From Bacteroidota bacterium (lineage in GTDB: Bacteria > Bacteroidota > Bacteroidia > UKL13-3): DNA of 64,000 nt. Positions 13,642 through 28,248 of this stretch are shown piece by piece; the stretch's first letter is position 1; every line of letters begins with the position of its first letter. The notes beneath the pieces are model-generated. The model had not been told where the DNA came from, made no database searches, and saw only the letters and a program-made list of their open reading frames with translations. The translations under genes and the position numbers were made by a program. The stretch covers positions 1 through 64,000 of the forward strand of contig CANGVA010000014.1 in NCBI GenBank assembly GCA_947457395.1. Reading direction: 5' to 3'.

Positions 13642-14970
13642 ATGAAAAACTTATTTACACTAATTGCCATTTGTTCGCTTAATGTTTTACATGCCCAATA
13701 CACTTGGGTTAATGTAGCATCGGCACCATACAATGCTTCAAAGCAGGATGGTGTTTTTTTTATCAATAAAGATACCGGATGGGTAGTGAATGGTTCGGGA
13801 GCCATACATAAAACCATAAATGGCGGTAATAGCTGGATACAACAAAAAAACAGCCCCGGCACCTATTTCAGAGCTATTGCATTTGTTAATGATCAGATAG
13901 GGTTTGCAGGAAATGTTGGTACCAATTATTTCCCAAATGTAACCGATGCCAATCCGCTATATAAGACCATTGACGGGGGTAACAGCTGGGCTCAAATCAC
14001 CTCCTCCATCAGCGGTGCTGTTCCTGATGGTATTTGTGCCATACAGGCTGTAAATGCCAATGTTATTTATGCAGCTGGCAGGGTTGGTGGGCCGCCTGTT
14101 ATCATAAAAAGTACTGATGGCGGCACAACATGGGTAGGCAAAAACTTATCGTCACAATGCGAGATGATACTCGATATTTATTTCCATTCAAAAGACACAG
14201 GGTATGTATTTGCCGGAACAAGTGCAGATATAACTGTTGCATCTGCAAGAATTTTGAGAACAACAGACGGAGGACAAAACTGGACTCCAGTTTTTACATC
14301 GAACAGACCATTTGAAATTACATGGAAAGCCTGGTTTCCTTCACACCAAGTTGGTTATGCCACTATACAAAGTTATAATAGTAGCACTTCTCAGCGATAT
14401 ATTGTAAAAACAACCGATGGTGGATTAACATGGAATGAACTGCCACTGGTAAATAATGGTACAAGAGAATTTGGAATTGGCTTTATTAATGATAGCGTTG
14501 GCTGGGTAGGCGGTGAAAACAGTGGATATCAAACTATAAATGGTGGCCTTACATGGTCTTCCGTTAATTTAGGTCAATATGCAAATAAATTCACTATTGT
14601 TAAAAATAGAGATGGTAGCTCTACAGCTTATGCAATAGGATTGCGATTATTCAAAATGTCTACGGGTATAGCTTCCGGATTAAATGAAGAAAAAAATGAA
14701 ATAAAAGGCGTATTGGCTCATCCAAATCCTGCAACATCAGGAGGCTATATATCCATTTCATTAGAAAGCATTAAAACAAGGATTGTCAAGGCAGAGTTGA
14801 TTTCAATAGATGGGAAAAGTACCTATCCTTTGTTTAAAGGATATTATCCGGGCACACATGAGTCACCATTTATGCTGCAACTACCCAATATTTCTACGGG
14901 TAATTACATTATTCAGTTTACTGACGATGGTGGTGCTCTCTTTAAACAGAAACTTGTTATCATTAACTAA
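13642..14970 (+). CDS. T9SS-exported Ycf48-like beta-propeller protein
   Basis: A 442-residue protein. The start at 13642 gives a signal peptide ending LHAQ. The body is a run of BNR/Ycf48-type blades, with the repeated theme of a TDGGxTW or NGGNSW turn (KTINGGNSW, KTIDGGNSW, KSTDGGTTW, RTTDGGQNW, KTTDGGLTW). The last about 80 residues form a T9SS sorting domain starting AHPNPATSGGY, so surface or secreted location is inferred. The propeller is clearly homologous to the C-terminal half of the next protein; for example both contain FAG-VGT-YFPNVTD. The two genes are 21 bp apart and probably cotranscribed. Function is unknown. Confidence 0.85.
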   Translation: MKNLFTLIAICSLNVLHAQYTWVNVASAPYNASKQDGVFFINKDTGWVVNGSGAIHKTINGGNSWIQQKNSPGTYFRAIAFVNDQIGFAGNVGTNYFPNVTDANPLYKTIDGGNSWAQITSSISGAVPDGICAIQAVNANVIYAAGRVGGPPVIIKSTDGGTTWVGKNLSSQCEMILDIYFHSKDTGYVFAGTSADITVASARILRTTDGGQNWTPVFTSNRPFEITWKAWFPSHQVGYATIQSYNSSTSQRYIVKTTDGGLTWNELPLVNNGTREFGIGFINDSVGWVGGENSGYQTINGGLTWSSVNLGQYANKFTIVKNRDGSSTAYAIGLRLFKMSTGIASGLNEEKNEIKGVLAHPNPATSGGYISISLESIKTRIVKAELISIDGKSTYPLFKGYYPGTHESPFMLQLPNISTGNYIIQFTDDGGALFKQKLVIIN

Positions 14971-14991
14971 TACTCAAAGCACATATTAATC

Positions 14992-17367
14992 ATGAATAGT
15001 AGAATTTCATTTTATTTACTAGTAATATTCTTATTTAGCGGCATTCATGGCGCACAAAGCCAGCAACTAAACCGCAGACCGTTTTTAGGTGCAAGATTAA
15101 ACCCCATTCAGACAGAAAGCTTTAGCGGTTGTGAAGTGTTACAGATAACCGGAGGAACCGCAGCCAACCTTAAACTGAAAGAAAAAGATGTTATAATAAA
15201 GATAGGCGATGCTGCCATTCATACACCAAATGATCTGGGTGATATATTTAAAACATACGAAACAGGACAAAATATTAAGTTAACGGTGCTGAGGGATAAG
15301 AAGCAAATCATACTAAAAGCCCAAATAGTTGGTCGTCCGTTTGAAACGGATGATAATGCAGAAGTCATATATGAGCAGGCTGCGTATAAAGATGGTCAGC
15401 TACGTGTTATTATTAACAAACCGTTTATTCGTAACAAAATGCCTGCCATGCTATTTATACCCGGGTACACCTGCAGCAGTATTGATGATTTAAAAAACAA
15501 TCATCCCTATAAAAGAATTATTGATGCATTTGTAGATGCGGGATATGTTACACTTCGCGTTGAAAAAAGTGGACTAGGCGACAGCAGAAACACACCAGCT
15601 TGTGAATCCTGTGATTTAATAGATGAAGTTGAAAATTTTGAAGTGGGCTTGAAGAAATTAAAGTCATTGCCATATGTAGATACCAATCAAATCATCATTG
15701 TTGGTCATTCAATGGGTGGGATAATTGCTCCTGCTATAAGCGCCAAACATAAAGTTGCAGGTGTTGTGGTATATGGCACAACTGCTAAATCCTGGTTTGA
15801 ATATCAACTGGAAATGTACCGCTTACAAAACGCATTAGCCGGAATGAATCCGATTGAAGTGGAAAAATCAGTAGTTGATCAATATGACTTAAACTACCGG
15901 TACTTCGTAAAAAAGGAGAAACTGGAAGACATGGCAAAGGACCCTAAGGCAGATAGTATTTTTAGAACAATTTGGGAGTATGATGGTAACGGGAAGATTT
16001 ACTCAAGAAATGCGGAATATTGGCGTCAGATACAAGACTACCCTCACTTAGAGAACTGGAAAAATACAACTGCTAAGGTATTGGTTCAGTTTGGCGAGTC
16101 AGACTTTCAGGCATTTTCCAAAGCAGATCATGAACAAATCGTTAATACGGTGAACCATTTTAACCAGGGAAATGCAACATTAAAAACATATCCGCATACA
16201 GATCATTTTTTCGCCAAATCAGGAACCATGCAGGAGGCGTATAATAAATTTGCCGAAGGAAAATACCAGCAACTATTTAATGAATATAACCCGGAAGTGG
16301 GCTTATCTGCTGTGAGATGGAGTAATGAAATTCTAGGACATAAAGATGAGGATAAACTTTCTAAAAAAGGATGGCAAAAATTGAATACGGAAAGCTACCC
16401 TGGAAAACAAGATGATATTACATTCATCAACGAACTTGAAGGCTGGTACGTTAATGGATACGGCAAAATCTATCACACAACCGATGGGGGCGAAACGTGG
16501 GAAATGCAGTTAGAAAAGAAAGGTACATTTTTTAGATGCATAGCATTCGTTGATAGGTTGAATGGATTTGCAGGAACAGTTGGTACAGACTATTTTCCAA
16601 ACGTAACCGATACCATTCCGCTTTATAAAACAAATAATGGCGGTAAAACATGGACACCTGTTGCGTATTCGGGATCTTATGTAAAAGGATTGTGTGCGTT
16701 GGATATTGTAAAGGAACAGTACATTAATCAAGGTAAAATAGATTACAAAATACACATCTTTGGTGTTGGCCGCGTTGGAAGCCCTGCTAATATGATGGTA
16801 TCACACGATGGGGGCGCAACTTGGACTTCAAAAAGCATGAATAAGGATTGTAAGATGTTGTTTGACATTAAAATGTTTGACAAGAACAACGGAATTGTTT
16901 GTGCTGCCTCGGATGAAGACATTGAAAAATCAAATGCGCTCATCTTAAAAACAAGCGATGGCGGTAAAACCTGGAAAAAAGTGTATCAATCCAATCGGCC
17001 ATTTGAAGGCACCTGGAAAGCATCCTTCCCTACAGATAAAATTGGGTACGTCACCATTCAATCATACAATCCTGACCCAAATGTAAAACAGCAGCGCATA
17101 GCAAAAACAATAGATGGCGGAAACTCATGGCAGGAAATAAACTTAGTAGAAGATGCCACTGCACGCCAATTTGGTATTGGCTTTATTAATGTAAATCATG
17201 GATTTGTAGGAACCATGAACTCCGGCTACGAAACTACTGATGGTGGTAAGACCTGGAAACCAATAAATATGGGAATGGCTTGTAATAAAATTAGAATCTA
17301 CAAAAATGCAAAAGGGGAAGTTTATGGATATGCCATAGGTGTAGATGTAATGAAATATGATTTTTAG
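14992..17367 (+). CDS. PDZ + alpha/beta hydrolase + Ycf48-like propeller fusion protein
   Basis: A 791-residue exported protein with three parts. After a signal peptide ending AQSQ, residues about 30-115 are a PDZ domain. Residues about 130-440 are an alpha/beta hydrolase with nucleophile Ser240 in GHSMGG, likely acid Asp371 (GESDF) and His405 (TDHFF). Residues about 455-791 are a Ycf48-like propeller with TDGGETW-type turns. No T9SS sorting domain follows the propeller, unlike the preceding protein. The first two parts are paralogous to the next gene and the third to the previous gene. It is probably a peptidase or esterase with a binding propeller; the substrate is unknown. Confidence 0.85.
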   Translation: MNSRISFYLLVIFLFSGIHGAQSQQLNRRPFLGARLNPIQTESFSGCEVLQITGGTAANLKLKEKDVIIKIGDAAIHTPNDLGDIFKTYETGQNIKLTVLRDKKQIILKAQIVGRPFETDDNAEVIYEQAAYKDGQLRVIINKPFIRNKMPAMLFIPGYTCSSIDDLKNNHPYKRIIDAFVDAGYVTLRVEKSGLGDSRNTPACESCDLIDEVENFEVGLKKLKSLPYVDTNQIIIVGHSMGGIIAPAISAKHKVAGVVVYGTTAKSWFEYQLEMYRLQNALAGMNPIEVEKSVVDQYDLNYRYFVKKEKLEDMAKDPKADSIFRTIWEYDGNGKIYSRNAEYWRQIQDYPHLENWKNTTAKVLVQFGESDFQAFSKADHEQIVNTVNHFNQGNATLKTYPHTDHFFAKSGTMQEAYNKFAEGKYQQLFNEYNPEVGLSAVRWSNEILGHKDEDKLSKKGWQKLNTESYPGKQDDITFINELEGWYVNGYGKIYHTTDGGETWEMQLEKKGTFFRCIAFVDRLNGFAGTVGTDYFPNVTDTIPLYKTNNGGKTWTPVAYSGSYVKGLCALDIVKEQYINQGKIDYKIHIFGVGRVGSPANMMVSHDGGATWTSKSMNKDCKMLFDIKMFDKNNGIVCAASDEDIEKSNALILKTSDGGKTWKKVYQSNRPFEGTWKASFPTDKIGYVTIQSYNPDPNVKQQRIAKTIDGGNSWQEINLVEDATARQFGIGFINVNHGFVGTMNSGYETTDGGKTWKPINMGMACNKIRIYKNAKGEVYGYAIGVDVMKYDF

Positions 17368-17401
17368 TTACAGAAGATAAATATATCAAAAAGAAGACAC
17401 A

Positions 17402-18784
17402 ATGAAATTTAAATTTACTGTAATCCTGTTTTCATTAATAATTAGCCAATTACTTTCTGCACAGGTTCTAAAAAAGAAATACGCTAATGGTTTTGGCTAT
17501 AAAATGTTAACCGATGAAATCAAAAATAAAAAAGCGTTCATCGGTGCGCATGGAGTTTTGGTAGAAGGTGTTTTGCCTAATTCAACTGCTGAAAGTGCTG
17601 GTATAAAAGATGGGGACATTATAGTTGAAATCAATAGAACAGTAATTTCTGATGAGCACATATTTTCCAAACCGCCATTATCTGAAATCACCGAAGGTAC
17701 AACGATTGAATATAAAATTTGGAGAGATACAACGTATTTTAATTTAATTACAACTGCAAAGGCAAAAGTTCATAAATCCACAGCGGGTATTAGTTACGAG
17801 TATGATGAGATAAAAACATCCTTTGGTTATTTAAGAACATTAATATCAAGACCAACTAATGCAAAAAGCAATTTACCGGCTATCATATTTATACAAGGAA
17901 ACACGTGTGAATCTGTAATTGATATTTCTGAACAAGATCCATATGAACAATTTTGTAATAGTTTAACTTTGCAAGGTTATGCCGTTATGCGAATAGACAA
18001 ACCTGGTGCAGGTGATAGTGAGGGACGACTTACTACCTGCAATAAAATGTCTTTTAACCAGGAGCTTGAACAATATCAAACCGGTTTAGATTATTTGAAA
18101 AGGAACAAGACAATAGACACAAAAAGAATTTTCATTTTTGGACACAGTATGGGTGGTATTATTGCTCCAATCCTGGCAAGTAAAAATAGCTCTATAAAAG
18201 GCGTAATAGTATATGGCACCCTAACTACAAAGTATGGTAATTATTTACCAAAAATTGTAGAAAGAAGCCTTATACAATCTGGAAATAGCAGAGAGGTTGC
18301 CTTAAATTATAAAAATAATATAAGTGAAATAACGCATGGTATATTTGATGAAAATAAATCGCCAACACAAATCATAATTGAAAATCCGGCATATGGGTAT
18401 TTATTACACCAGGTTTTTAGATGGAACGAAAAAGATACCACGATTTTAAATAGATCCTTAAATTTTAATAGAGAGCTAAACAAGATTGAACCAAAAGATT
18501 ATTGGGAAAAAGTTTCATGTCCGGTTCTTTCTATTTATGGAACATCGGATTTTGAAGCAATTGATAAAGAATATGCTACCGCTATGATTGGTTGGACTAA
18601 CGCCAATAATGCTAAGCAATCTAAGGCTATTGTAATAGAAGATACTGATCATGCATTTGCTAAAGTGGGTTCCATGGAAGAAGGAATTAAACTAAAATAT
18701 TCCGGAAAATACAGCAGGATTATGCAGGAAAACTTTAATCCTTTAATAGTAAAGAAAGCACATGAATGGATAATATCATTTTAA
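17402..18784 (+). CDS. PDZ + alpha/beta hydrolase, secreted
   Basis: A 460-residue protein with a signal peptide ending LLSAQ, a PDZ domain at about residues 40-115 (GVLPNSTAESAGIKDGDII) and an alpha/beta hydrolase with Ser249 in GHSMGG, Asp383 (GTSDF) and His417 (TDHAF). It aligns with the first 440 residues of the fusion protein just upstream and stops where that protein continues into the propeller. The gap to the fusion gene is 34 bp, so the three genes probably form one operon. A role as an exported peptidase or esterase is inferred. Confidence 0.85.
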   Translation: MKFKFTVILFSLIISQLLSAQVLKKKYANGFGYKMLTDEIKNKKAFIGAHGVLVEGVLPNSTAESAGIKDGDIIVEINRTVISDEHIFSKPPLSEITEGTTIEYKIWRDTTYFNLITTAKAKVHKSTAGISYEYDEIKTSFGYLRTLISRPTNAKSNLPAIIFIQGNTCESVIDISEQDPYEQFCNSLTLQGYAVMRIDKPGAGDSEGRLTTCNKMSFNQELEQYQTGLDYLKRNKTIDTKRIFIFGHSMGGIIAPILASKNSSIKGVIVYGTLTTKYGNYLPKIVERSLIQSGNSREVALNYKNNISEITHGIFDENKSPTQIIIENPAYGYLLHQVFRWNEKDTTILNRSLNFNRELNKIEPKDYWEKVSCPVLSIYGTSDFEAIDKEYATAMIGWTNANNAKQSKAIVIEDTDHAFAKVGSMEEGIKLKYSGKYSRIMQENFNPLIVKKAHEWIISF

Positions 18785-18830: not shown

Positions 18831-18977
18831 ATGAATCAAATCTATAGTGACTTTAAAAAACTAATAAAAACCCATTGGGAAACAATTTTGCTTATACTCC
18901 TCATTTCAGTAATATTCATATCATCTAATTATACAGATATAAAAGCAGGTATTATAGATGCTTGGTTAGGGAAATAA
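18831..18977 (+). CDS. Small single-pass membrane peptide, 48 residues
   Basis: The reading frame is MNQIYSDFKK..., with a hydrophobic segment LLILLISVIFI at residues 21-30 and a conserved-looking tail KAGIIDAWLGK before the TAA. It begins 46 bp after the hydrolase stop. A second, damaged copy exists at 27500-27642, and most of the differences between the copies are at silent or conservative positions. This supports a real gene. Its function is unknown; a small membrane regulator or toxin-like peptide is possible but unproven. Confidence 0.6.
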   Translation: MNQIYSDFKKLIKTHWETILLILLISVIFISSNYTDIKAGIIDAWLGK

Positions 18978-19095
18978 ACACTGAATCTTAGATTAAGCTA
19001 TTCGAAATTGTGAAGTGCCATTATAAAGATACCAAATGCACGTCGACTAATTATTGATCTAGAAAGTAGCCCTAAAAATCGGACTGGATAAAAAT

Positions 19096-20014
19096 AGGCA
19101 AAAAGCTAGAGGAAGAGTACCGCACGTTGAAGCAAATATATGCCGATGCTGCCCTTGATAATAAAATGCTCAAGGAAGTTCTCTCAAAAAAGTGGTAAAG
19201 CCTGTTGATCGTAAGACAATAGCCGCTTATCTGAGCCAAACCCATCAGATAAGTCTTACCACAGCTTGCAGCTTAGTTGGGTTGCCTAAATCAATACACT
19301 ATTACGCATCCATCAAGGATGATAGTCAATTAATTGATAAACTATCGGAACTTGCAGAACTTAAACCCAATCGAGGCTTTCCATACTATTTCAGACGTAT
19401 AAGAAATGAGGGAATGATTTGGAATCATAAACGCGTAAAGCTTGTGTATAAGCTATTAAATCTGAACAAACGCAAAACATAATCGCAGGCTGCCACAAAG
19501 CTATTTGGAGACGTTGCACTATCCCGCGAGTACAGACCTGAAATGTAGTATTGATTTTATGCATCACATTTAAATGAACGGTAGTAAAGTAAGAATTATA
19601 AATATGATTAATGGCTACAATCGTGAGGCAGTGGCCATTAAGTCTGACAACTCTCAGTAAGGGCATTCGCTGGTGAAAGTGCTTGAAGAACTTTCTAATT
19701 AAAGACCTTTACCTGTATAAATTAGGTGTGACAATAGCCCTGAATTCTTATCTCTCGTGTTCGTGAACTTATGCAACGACAAGGGTATTAAGATAATATA
19801 TATACAACCTTGAAAGGCTACTCAAAACGCCTTTACTGAACGATTTAATAAAACATTTAGAGAAGATATCCTTGATGCAAACCTATTTGAATCACTAAAT
19901 CATTTTAGGCTCCTAGCTTCAAATTGGATGGACGAGTACAACCTAACACATCCTTATTAGGCATTAAACAATTATAGCCCACTTAATTATTTAGAAATTA
20001 ATCATCATATTTGA
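19096..20014 (+). pseudogene. Decayed IS3-family transposase (IS407-like group)
   Basis: The end of OrfA is seen at 19096-19197 (ending DNKMLKEVLSKKW, then stop). OrfB begins at 19192 with VKPVDRKTIAAYL and reads NHKRVKLVYKLLNLNKRKT before a frame break at 19482. Later pieces are still recognisable: SIDFMHH, then DNSPEF, then an AFTERFNKTFRED segment with the third acidic residue, and a C-terminal SPLNYLEI. At least three stops interrupt it. No terminal inverted repeats were found. The element is dead, and the 5' part of OrfA is missing or unrecognisable. Confidence 0.9.
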
Positions 20015-20141: not shown

Positions 20142-22271
20142 ATGAACAAACTTAAACAATGTATACTATCATTACTATTTACAACTATTGTAGCAATACC
20201 AGTTTATGCACAAAACAATAAAATAGATAGCATCAGAATTATTTTAAGAAAAGCTACAAATGATACGACTGCGAACAAGGCTTATTTAGACATTGGAATG
20301 GAATTTGAAAAATACAATGTCGATTCAAGCTTAGTTTACTATGAAATGGCGTTAAAAAATGCAAGAGAAAGCAAGTTTTTATTTGGAGAAGCAAATGCAA
20401 ACATTTATCTATCAAAGTATTTTATCATGCATTTTAATGATTATAAAACCTCCTTTAAATATATTATTTATGCAAAGGCTATCTTAGATAAGTTATTACA
20501 GAATGAGAAAACAATAACAGGTAGAAATAAAATAATAGAGAAATTAATTAGCGTATATTCTGGATTAAGTATTTATTATTCCAATATAGGTAAAAATCAA
20601 TTGTCAGTATTTTGTATTAGAAAGAGTTTAAGCTTAGCTAAGATTATTAAGAATGATAATCTTATTGCTAGGTCATACTATAATTTAGGTTATCATTCGC
20701 TTGTGTTAGATGATTTCCCGGCAGCTTTAAATTGGTTCTTATTATCTTTAAAAATAAGAGAAAATATTGATGCAGATAATTTACATGAATTGTATATCGG
20801 AATTGGTGATATTTATTCTAATTTGAAATATTATTCTAAAGCATTAGAGTATTATAATAAAGTTTTTAAGTTAAAAAACAAAAACTTTGACGCCAATGTC
20901 CGAAGCTATATCTCGATAGGAAACATGTATCTTAAGCAGAATGAAACTTCGAAAGCTTTTGAATTTTACACAAAAGCAGAAGCATTGATTGGAACATATC
21001 AATTAAAAAGGTCACAAGTAATGCTCTATAACTCTTTAGGCCAGTATTACCAACAGCTGGGTAAAAATGATTTAGCCCTAAAGTACTTTTTTGAATTGCT
21101 TAAAATTGGAGAACACACACAAAGAAAAGAAGTAATTGCAATTACAAAGTTATCTATAGCCAACATTTATGAGAAAGAAAATAAAGATAAATTAGCAATA
21201 CAGTATGCAACCAGTGCTTCGGTTTTAGCTAAAGAAAACAGCAGATTAGACACCTATTGGACTGCCGAGGAATTACTAAGTAGGCTTTATGAAAAACAAA
21301 ATCAACTTCAATTGGCATTATACCATTATAAAGAATTTATAAGTACCAAAGCTAGTATTGAAAATAATGAAAATACCGAAAAAATTGTCAAAGCTCAAAT
21401 GAACTATGAATTTGAGAAAAAGGAATTAATTGCAAAAGCAGAGCAAGACAAAGGAAAAGCAATTGCATTGCAAGAATTAAACAGACAGAAATTAATTAGA
21501 AACAGTGTTGCCGTATTTTCAATACTGATAATGATTCTATCTTCTGTATTGGTGTTTAATTATAAAAAGAGGTCTAATATTAGTAAAGCATTAGCCCAAA
21601 AATCAGAGGAATTATATTTACAAAAAGCGGTAGAACTGATTAAAAATGAACAAGTAAAATCGATGCGTAATTACATCAAAGGCGAAGAAAACGAAAGAAA
21701 TAGAATTGCGACTGAATTGCACGATGGTGTTGGAGGAACACTTTCTGCAATTAAACTAAAATTGAGAAAAATTACAGAGGATGTTAAGAACCCTCAAATA
21801 GATAAGGTAATTAATAATATTGATGAATTATATCAAGAGGTGAGATCTATAACCCATAATTTGATTACACCACAACTGCAAGATTCCATTTTTATTGAAA
21901 TCATCAATAATTTAGTCAACGACATCAAGGATGCTACTAGTCTTGAAATTACATTAGAGTATTTAGAAGAAGATAAAATAAACCAATTGTCAGAAGAAAT
22001 TCAAGTAACTGTTTATAGGATGATTCAAGAATTACTTAAGAATTCTGTTACCCATTCCAATGGAACCAAAATAGAAATTAATCTAAACAAATTTGAGCAC
22101 GAATTAAATTTAGTTTTTGAAGATAATGGCTCTGGATTTGACCCTGCAACAAAAAAAATAGGAATAGGGTTACGAAATATAGAAACAAGGACAAAAGCAT
22201 TAGGAGGAAAACTGATTATTGACTCAGTTAAGGGAAGAGGAACAGCCTTTAATATTACGATACCTTGTTAA
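20142..22271 (+). CDS. TPR-containing sensor histidine kinase, NarX/LytS-like (HisKA_3)
   Basis: A 709-residue kinase. A signal peptide (ends PVYAQ) is followed by an extracytoplasmic array of TPR repeats to about residue 420, a coiled segment, one membrane helix near 452-473, then the kinase. The phospho-acceptor is His527 in ATELHDGVGGTLS, the HisKA_3 signature. The ATPase part has the N box (ELLKNSVTHSN) and G box (DNGSGFDP). This architecture is common in Bacteroidota and senses unknown periplasmic signals. The response regulator follows 12 bp downstream. Confidence 0.93.
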   Translation: MNKLKQCILSLLFTTIVAIPVYAQNNKIDSIRIILRKATNDTTANKAYLDIGMEFEKYNVDSSLVYYEMALKNARESKFLFGEANANIYLSKYFIMHFNDYKTSFKYIIYAKAILDKLLQNEKTITGRNKIIEKLISVYSGLSIYYSNIGKNQLSVFCIRKSLSLAKIIKNDNLIARSYYNLGYHSLVLDDFPAALNWFLLSLKIRENIDADNLHELYIGIGDIYSNLKYYSKALEYYNKVFKLKNKNFDANVRSYISIGNMYLKQNETSKAFEFYTKAEALIGTYQLKRSQVMLYNSLGQYYQQLGKNDLALKYFFELLKIGEHTQRKEVIAITKLSIANIYEKENKDKLAIQYATSASVLAKENSRLDTYWTAEELLSRLYEKQNQLQLALYHYKEFISTKASIENNENTEKIVKAQMNYEFEKKELIAKAEQDKGKAIALQELNRQKLIRNSVAVFSILIMILSSVLVFNYKKRSNISKALAQKSEELYLQKAVELIKNEQVKSMRNYIKGEENERNRIATELHDGVGGTLSAIKLKLRKITEDVKNPQIDKVINNIDELYQEVRSITHNLITPQLQDSIFIEIINNLVNDIKDATSLEITLEYLEEDKINQLSEEIQVTVYRMIQELLKNSVTHSNGTKIEINLNKFEHELNLVFEDNGSGFDPATKKIGIGLRNIETRTKALGGKLIIDSVKGRGTAFNITIPC

Positions 22272-22283
22272 TGAGTTTTGAAT

Positions 22284-22934
22284 ATGATGAAGAGAATAAA
22301 TATTGCCATAGTTGATGATCATTCCCTTTTCTTAGAAGGGCTGACTTCATTATTGAAGGATATAGAAGGCTTCAATATTATCATCACAGCTAAACATGCA
22401 AAAGAATTATTAAATCATCCCAGCCTATCAATTATTGATGTTTTAATTAGTGATATCAGAATGCCAGATACAGATGGCATAGAACTAAGCCAGTTAATAA
22501 AAAAACAGTTTCCATCAACTAAAATCCTAATCTTATCAATGCACGATGAACCTCAAATCATTAAAACATTGATTAAATCCAGGGTAGATGGCTATCTATT
22601 TAAAAACGCTGAAAAAGAACTATTAATTAGCGCAATATCTAGTATTGCCCAAGGAACGCCATTTTTTAGTGAGGAAATTAAAAACAAAATCATTTTTACA
22701 AATGAGGTGGGGAGCGAATCAACTACCAAGCCTGTTTTACCAAAACTATCTACTCGTGAAAAGGAAGTTCTGGATTTAATAGCCAAAGGATTAACCATAA
22801 ACCAGATTGCAGAAATGCTAATTATTAGTCCGCATACTGTAGTAAGCCATAAACAAAAACTTTTTTACAAGTTTAACGTTGATAAAATAACCAGTCTTAT
22901 AAAGAAAGCCATTGATCTGGAGTTTATAGACTAG
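22284..22934 (+). CDS. NarL/FixJ-family response regulator
   Basis: A two-domain transcription regulator of 216 residues. The receiver has the acidic pair DD in AIVDDHS, the phospho-acceptor Asp57 (ISDIRMPDTDG) and the conserved Lys of GYLFKNA. The C-terminal LuxR-type helix-turn-helix runs from LSTREKEVLDLIAKG to SPHTVVSHKQKL. I chose the ATG at 22284 over a TTG at 22278; ATG at 22287 is also possible. It forms a two-component pair with the preceding kinase. Targets are unknown, though the neighbouring secreted-protein genes are candidates. Confidence 0.95.
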   Translation: MMKRINIAIVDDHSLFLEGLTSLLKDIEGFNIIITAKHAKELLNHPSLSIIDVLISDIRMPDTDGIELSQLIKKQFPSTKILILSMHDEPQIIKTLIKSRVDGYLFKNAEKELLISAISSIAQGTPFFSEEIKNKIIFTNEVGSESTTKPVLPKLSTREKEVLDLIAKGLTINQIAEMLIISPHTVVSHKQKLFYKFNVDKITSLIKKAIDLEFID

Positions 22935-27478: not shown

Positions 27479-27499
27479 TTAAACAAATAGATTCATCCA

Positions 27500-27642
27500 T
27501 CAAATCTATAGTGACCTTAAAAAACTTATAAAAACCCATTGGGAAACAATTTTAATTATACTCCTTATTTCAGTAATGTTTATATCATCTAATGATACAG
27601 ACAGTAAAGCAGGTATTTATAGATACTTGGTTAGGGAAGTAA
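27500..27642 (+). pseudogene. Decayed second copy of the 48-residue membrane peptide
   Basis: The sequence from TCAAATCTATAGTGAC to TTAGGGAAGTAA matches 18836-18977 closely. The start codon is lost (the ATGA is replaced by TTCATCCA) and an extra T at about 27616 shifts the frame before the GIIDAWLGK end. This shows the small ORF has been duplicated 8.7 kb away and one copy decayed. Confidence 0.7.
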
Positions 27643-28248
27643 ATGACGTACCTGCTAGCGCCTAAATTATTGTTTAATTTTTATTACAAAGTTATAATCC
27701 AACTGTACACCAAACAAATCAAGCACTATCGCTTTATTTGGTGCACAGAAGTGCTTTATCTGCTTGATAAGTCTATTAAGAGTTTACTTTAAAGCTTTAA
27801 GAACGAGCAAAACGCAATATTACTTTGCGTAAAGGCTTAATAAAAACTTAATTTAACAAAATTTTAATTTTTGTTACTATTATTGCTTATGTCCCTCAAA
27901 TTAATAACCAAAACATGTCAAGTTTCATAGCTTCATGCATTTTCATTTTCATTGTAATTTATATTAGCTATAATTTTTATATGAATATAACATGGCTCAA
28001 ATAACTGGCATACATCCAAGCAAGAATAGAATATCGGTTTTTATGTTAAAGGCTATAGCACATTTAACGGCTGCTATACAAATAACCGGTTACCTTACAG
28101 TAGCAGGAGTAAAACAGCCAGTGGCTGTTTCAAATCTACACAATAAATCATTGCTTATGCAGAAAGGACATAAAAACTTACTCCCCTTCCTTTTCATGAG
28201 TAAATCACGTAGTTCCAATTTACAAAGCACATCTGAATAGCGTAAATT
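27643..28248. other. AT-rich intergenic region with nested inverted repeats
   Basis: No convincing gene. An open frame at 27992-28240 (82 residues) has no recognisable domain. A compact structured stretch at 27704-27764 holds three overlapping inverted repeats: TGTACACCAAA/TTTGGTGCACA, AAGCACT/AGTGCTT and ATCAAGCA/TGCTTGAT. This could be an RNA structure or the trace of a lost element. The promoter of the amidotransferase is presumably further right. Confidence 0.4.

Follow-up and report, generated by a model that had tools for sequence, protein, structure and literature searches.

Ycf48/HCF136, a photosystem II assembly factor (2xbg, 5ojp), shares a seven-bladed BNR-type propeller (Z about 23, 15-16% identity) with the product of gene 2, the PDZ-hydrolase-propeller fusion described here, whose propeller aligned with 5ojp at a Z of 23.4 over 284 residues (rmsd 3.3). 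However, gene 2 scored only 75.9 bits against the NCBIfam Ycf48 equivalog NF010237 (cut-off 326), and its propeller occurs in heterotrophs, joined to a PDZ-esterase. Feruloyl/cinnamoyl esterases, the TTL lipase and PET46 (7xri, 3pfb, 7q4j, 8b4u) have the same fold as the gene 2 hydrolase and a Ser-Asp-His triad (Z 24-26), but they are single domains without PDZ or propeller, and at 14-24% identity the likeness is one of fold only. The EstD esterase (NF041096) was the best NCBIfam hydrolase match to gene 2 (58.2 bits) and gene 3 (66.3 bits), whereas both lie far under its 600-bit cut-off and EstD lacks a propeller. DegP/HtrA-type proteins have a PDZ domain of the same Do/HtrA kind, but their catalytic domain is a trypsin-like protease instead of an alpha/beta-hydrolase. 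In S9 prolyl oligopeptidases, the propeller gates the active site and stands ahead of the catalytic domain or is inserted ahead of it. These enzymes (5yzn, 8wt1) also combine an alpha/beta-hydrolase (fold Z about 22) with a beta-propeller, but gene 2 runs from PDZ to hydrolase and then to a linker and a propeller of a different family. Literature searches of open full texts found no named system with this layout, as the initial annotation of the locus had also stated.

The window, the whole 64,000-nucleotide stretch of DNA analysed, carries on its + strand gene 1 (13642-14970, 442 aa, with an ATG start inside a longer TTG ORF from 13579), gene 2 (14992-17367, 791 aa) and gene 3 (17402-18784, 460 aa), separated by gaps of 21 bp (genes 1 and 2) and 34 bp (genes 2 and 3). 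ORF calls and Pfam searches agreed with the initial annotation on this three-ORF layout, its domains and its gaps. A further + strand ORF absent from that annotation (18831-18977, 48 aa) begins 46 bp after gene 3 and encodes a small protein with one membrane segment, predicted by inspection; the four genes likely form one operon. A sigma-70-type promoter scan gave no excess over shuffles. A decayed IS3-like transposase remnant (about 18990-20010, + strand) with many stops and frameshifts, which was identified by eye from its translation and not by a profile, separates the gene set from a TPR-histidine kinase/LuxR response regulator pair (20142-22934).

Gene 2 matched PDZ_2, several alpha/beta-hydrolase families and PSII_BNR (6e-16) in Pfam, and carries a Sec signal peptide only, with neither a T9SS tail nor a lipobox. 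Its PDZ domain lies at 15082-15327, and the structure model and alignment place the hydrolase domain at 15349-16332 and the propeller domain at 16369-17364 (all + strand). The fusion was modelled with a mean pLDDT of 87 but a pTM of 0.59, so each domain can be trusted by itself, but not the arrangement of the domains to one another. The closest solved folds were feruloyl esterases, the TTL lipase and PET46 for the hydrolase (Z about 24-26), and GH74 and Ycf48 for the propeller (Z about 23-25). The fold, together with a nucleophile Ser in GxSxG, an Asp and a His, identifies the former as an alpha/beta-hydrolase of the esterase/lipase type. The triad S240 (15709-15711), D371 (16102-16104) and H405 (16204-16206; all + strand), the cysteines C161 and C204, and the GHSMGG motif containing the nucleophile were invariant in 32 aligned hydrolases, fused or split. 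Across 31 fused or split propellers 108 residues were invariant. Mean identity among 26 fusions was 0.85 for the hydrolase and 0.83 for the propeller, and PDZ was the least conserved domain (0.57). In a side comparison with locus L017, the hydrolase half of the window's gene 2 was 95% identical and the propeller half only 86%, and the tree positions of the two halves differed, possibly through recombination between domains.

To survey the fusion, we scanned 84,980 species genomes once with it as query and obtained 46 loci. Most carry a full-length fusion at 59-91% identity, a share inflated by the use of the fusion as bait; many of the loci lie on short MAG contigs whose organism names are unreliable. 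An assembly artefact is ruled out, because numerous assemblies contain the fusion, among them the complete UKL13-3 chromosome. Of the 64 genomes of the window's family, 5 or 6 contain it. Among 395 genomes drawn evenly from the phylum, with two candidates scored per genome, no further full-length fusion appeared at E 1e-20; the propellers and hydrolases matched there, at under about 41% identity, stood apart and revealed no broader linkage.

The 299 Flavobacterium genomes drawn contained the fusion four times, and adjacent split pairs and lone propellers several times each. Each half of the split pairs (L043, L044, L052-L056, L060) has its own signal peptide. The split propellers fall inside the fusion clade, beside that of the F. 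piscinae fusion, which identifies the pairs as orthologues of the gene 2 halves; identity between fused and split forms is about 70-75% for the propeller and about 50-54% for the hydrolase. The initial annotation had predicted that propeller and hydrolase work together and proposed a neighbourhood search. The two do co-occur elsewhere, fused or adjacent, and the recurrence of the fusion in dozens of Bacteroidota loci, with adjacent split orthologues in Flavobacterium, argues for a functional link. This fusion-and-split evidence holds because the Flavobacterium pairs are orthologous, and not because of genes 1 and 3.

Gene 1 encodes a Ycf48-like seven-bladed propeller (PSII_BNR, Pfam, 8e-14) with a Sec signal peptide; at 67.6 bits it did not reach the NF010237 cut-off of 326. 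Its C-terminus aligned over the full length of a putative type A T9SS sorting domain (14722-14967, + strand), which the initial annotation had also assigned, with borderline scores below the curated cut-offs (Por_Secre_tail, 19.9 bits against 27; TIGR04183, 22.9 against 23). The relatives L057 and L012 passed the Pfam cut-off for this tail, and genes 2 and 3 gave no T9SS-tail match in Pfam or NCBIfam. In a quick propeller tree with SH-aLRT support only, gene 1 grouped with L013 (92% identical), L040 and L057, whose propellers have as neighbour the fusion, a relative of its hydrolase, or its AraC regulator. Gene 1 clustered with the fusion-type propellers to the exclusion of the generic propellers of the phylum (100% SH-aLRT), which makes gene 1 an old paralogue of the fusion propeller.

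Gene 3 matched PDZ and Hydrolase_4 in Pfam and has a plain Sec signal peptide. Its predicted structure shows the same hydrolase fold as gene 2, and it keeps both invariant cysteines and the triad S249/D383/H417; Ser-Asp-His is thus retained in both hydrolases, as the initial annotation had noted, which is consistent with activity of both. Gene 3 grouped with L022, L032 and L034 (about 67-70% identity; Flavobacterium and another Bacteroidota), far from the fusion hydrolases. The fusion hydrolase is no closer to gene 3 (25%) than to standalone PDZ-hydrolases from other families in the phylum (L063, 33%), although gene 3 and the fusion hydrolases may still have an older, private ancestor in common (AU p 0.167). 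In L034 (Flavobacterium macrobrachii), several decayed copies of the gene 3 C-terminus and the small membrane protein ORF lie downstream of gene 3 (14082-15880), pointing to repeated recombination there.

Directly before the fusion or pair, 35 of the 46 loci have an AraC-family gene; in three others a single gene intervenes. Two types were distinguished, c1 (281-303 aa in most) and c3 (about 271 aa), usually 33-60 bp from the fusion or pair. Type c1, the main one, was confined in the family to 3 of 64 genomes, in all of which it adjoins the fusion. Two family genomes have close relatives of c3, one beside the fusion (G013) and one beside a gene-1-type propeller (G014). Neither type was matched in the window or its genome. 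In the three loci with an intervening gene, a T9SS-tailed Kelch propeller stands between AraC and the fusion (L028:1378-2766, L042:1718-3118, L051:6500-7900), the slot taken by gene 1 in the window.

The small membrane protein matched no Pfam or NCBIfam family, and its residues W, D, K, G and DxW are invariant. Homologues follow the fusion in L019, L024, L035, L050, L061 and L009/L062; others follow gene 3 (L034, two copies), a transglutaminase-like gene (L017 and UKL13-3, L103), an M13 peptidase gene (L018, L104) or an S15 peptidase gene (L105). Within the family it was found in 5 of 64 genomes (that of the window, G003, G013, G026 and G062), partly unlinked from the fusion. All five are among the six fusion carriers, of which G057 lacks it (hypergeometric probability of about 8e-7 for 5 of 5 from 6 of 64, a post hoc value that ignores relatedness). 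Outside the family only 10 of 35 fusion-bearing genomes have the protein. The window holds a second, decayed copy of the ORF after an unrelated exported-protein gene (27495-27643, + strand; 90% DNA identity over 145 bp, frame broken), as if this segment were copied around. In L116 (1498-1884, - strand), the small protein forms the C-terminal part of an XRE-type HTH protein, which suggests a membrane-tethered regulator in that genome.

To assess horizontal transfer, we compared the identity of the fusion with that of RpoB, normally the more conserved protein. The fusions of UKL13-3 and F. macrobrachii are 90% identical and their RpoB 75%; those of L022 and Flavobacterium sp. L032 are 94% identical and their RpoB 77%. 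Similarly, AraC c1 is 96% identical between UKL13-3 and L018, with RpoB at 75%. Because the fusion exceeds RpoB in identity, exchange between orders is the simplest reading, and the unit appears to have been exchanged horizontally among freshwater Bacteroidota. As for carriage by phage or plasmid, no phage or viral-contig relative was found, and plasmid matches were partial and under 60% identity. An empty-site comparison with genome G049 of the same genus gave no match to the probe gene there.

On this evidence we favour, with confidence that is evenly balanced, the reading that gene 2 is a horizontally exchanged, exported PDZ-esterase-propeller unit to which the window adds genes 1 and 3 and the small membrane protein. 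The initial annotation had instead regarded genes 1 and 3 as the split counterpart of gene 2, arisen by duplication and domain loss and forming a surface complex. The operon-like order agrees with that model, and separate genes for propeller and hydrolase are paired elsewhere too; in L057, for example, a PDZ-hydrolase follows a gene-1-type propeller. The pairwise alignments that the annotation had called for were also significant far beyond chance for both halves (gene 1 and the gene 2 C-terminus, 47% over 330 aa, E 5e-95; the gene 2 N-terminus and gene 3, 26% over 417 aa, E 2e-42). However, these identities are far lower than those of genes 1 and 3 to proteins of other genomes (92% and about 67-70%), and together with the trees they rule out a recent tandem duplication with domain loss at the locus. 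Genes 1 and 3 are thus divergent paralogues, each in its own clade common to other genomes, and not split copies. Nor is a surface complex of the two supported, because only gene 1 carries a T9SS signal, itself borderline, and relatives of gene 3 lie near the fusion without gene 1 in L022, L032 and L034. We therefore consider the split-counterpart model distinctly improbable.

A more serious competitor, although one we still hold to be unlikely, is that the hydrolase is an optional passenger, fused, adjacent or left out depending on the lineage, and that the functional unit proper is the AraC-propeller pair, acting as a sensor or binding module. Several Flavobacterium loci (L153, L154, L157) have a c1-type AraC gene directly upstream of a lone propeller (73-77% identical) with no hydrolase nearby, indicating that the hydrolase is not obligatory and that the propeller can work without it, and the propeller is also the better conserved half between fused and split forms. 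Against this, the retrieved loci usually have the two fused or adjacent, although the fusion query biases that count, and within the fusions the hydrolase is as conserved as the propeller and its triad is invariant. The neighbouring genes raise another reading, in which the set is an AraC-controlled peptide-handling island whose enzymes and small membrane protein act on extracellular peptides or on the small protein itself. Near the fusion or the small membrane protein ORF there are peptidases (M13 in L018, L022 and L104; S15 in L105; M61 in L150), TraB/GumN genes (L009, L018, L027, L034, L047, L050, L061) and transglutaminase-like genes (L017, L027, L032, L103). However, these are common exported enzymes in Bacteroidota, and the hydrolase fold is best matched by esterases, with S9 peptidases lower, so we regard a peptide-handling island as improbable.

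Under the favoured reading of an exported PDZ-esterase-propeller unit, the fusion protein would be exported through Sec, and the products of genes 2 and 3 would reach the periplasm and that of gene 1 the surface by T9SS. The propeller and PDZ domain may bind a peptide terminus, a protein partner or a polymer and bring an ester (or amide) bond within reach of the Ser-Asp-His site. Where present, the AraC regulator would sense a signal and switch the unit on. The window's unit would have lost its AraC gene and now stands with an older propeller paralogue, a divergent PDZ-hydrolase and the small membrane protein; genes 1 and 3 would be added specialised relatives and not halves that reconstitute gene 2. 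The gene 2 product is probably periplasmic and feruloyl esterase/lipase-like. A co-culture with the cyanobacterium Aphanizomenon flos-aquae yielded the UKL13-3 assembly, and UKL13-3 is described as dependent on this partner (PMC5248499), which suggests a phytoplankton-derived substrate. More tentatively, the AraC regulator, the fusion, often the small membrane protein, and exchangeable accessory peptidases or T9SS propellers might constitute one horizontally moving sense-and-degrade or sense-and-modify system, whose hosts would be freshwater, partly cyanobacteria-associated Bacteroidota.

These results describe a previously undescribed enzyme, an exported PDZ-esterase-propeller fusion that appears to be passed around freshwater Bacteroidota. 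The role of its propeller is testable in cultured Flavobacterium, in which the fused form is found in F. macrobrachii and F. piscinae and the split form in F. fontis and F. aurantiibacter. As a natural case of fusion and fission, the locus ties Ycf48-like propellers, which are widespread in Bacteroidota, to an exported esterase, a dedicated regulator and a co-occurring small membrane protein.
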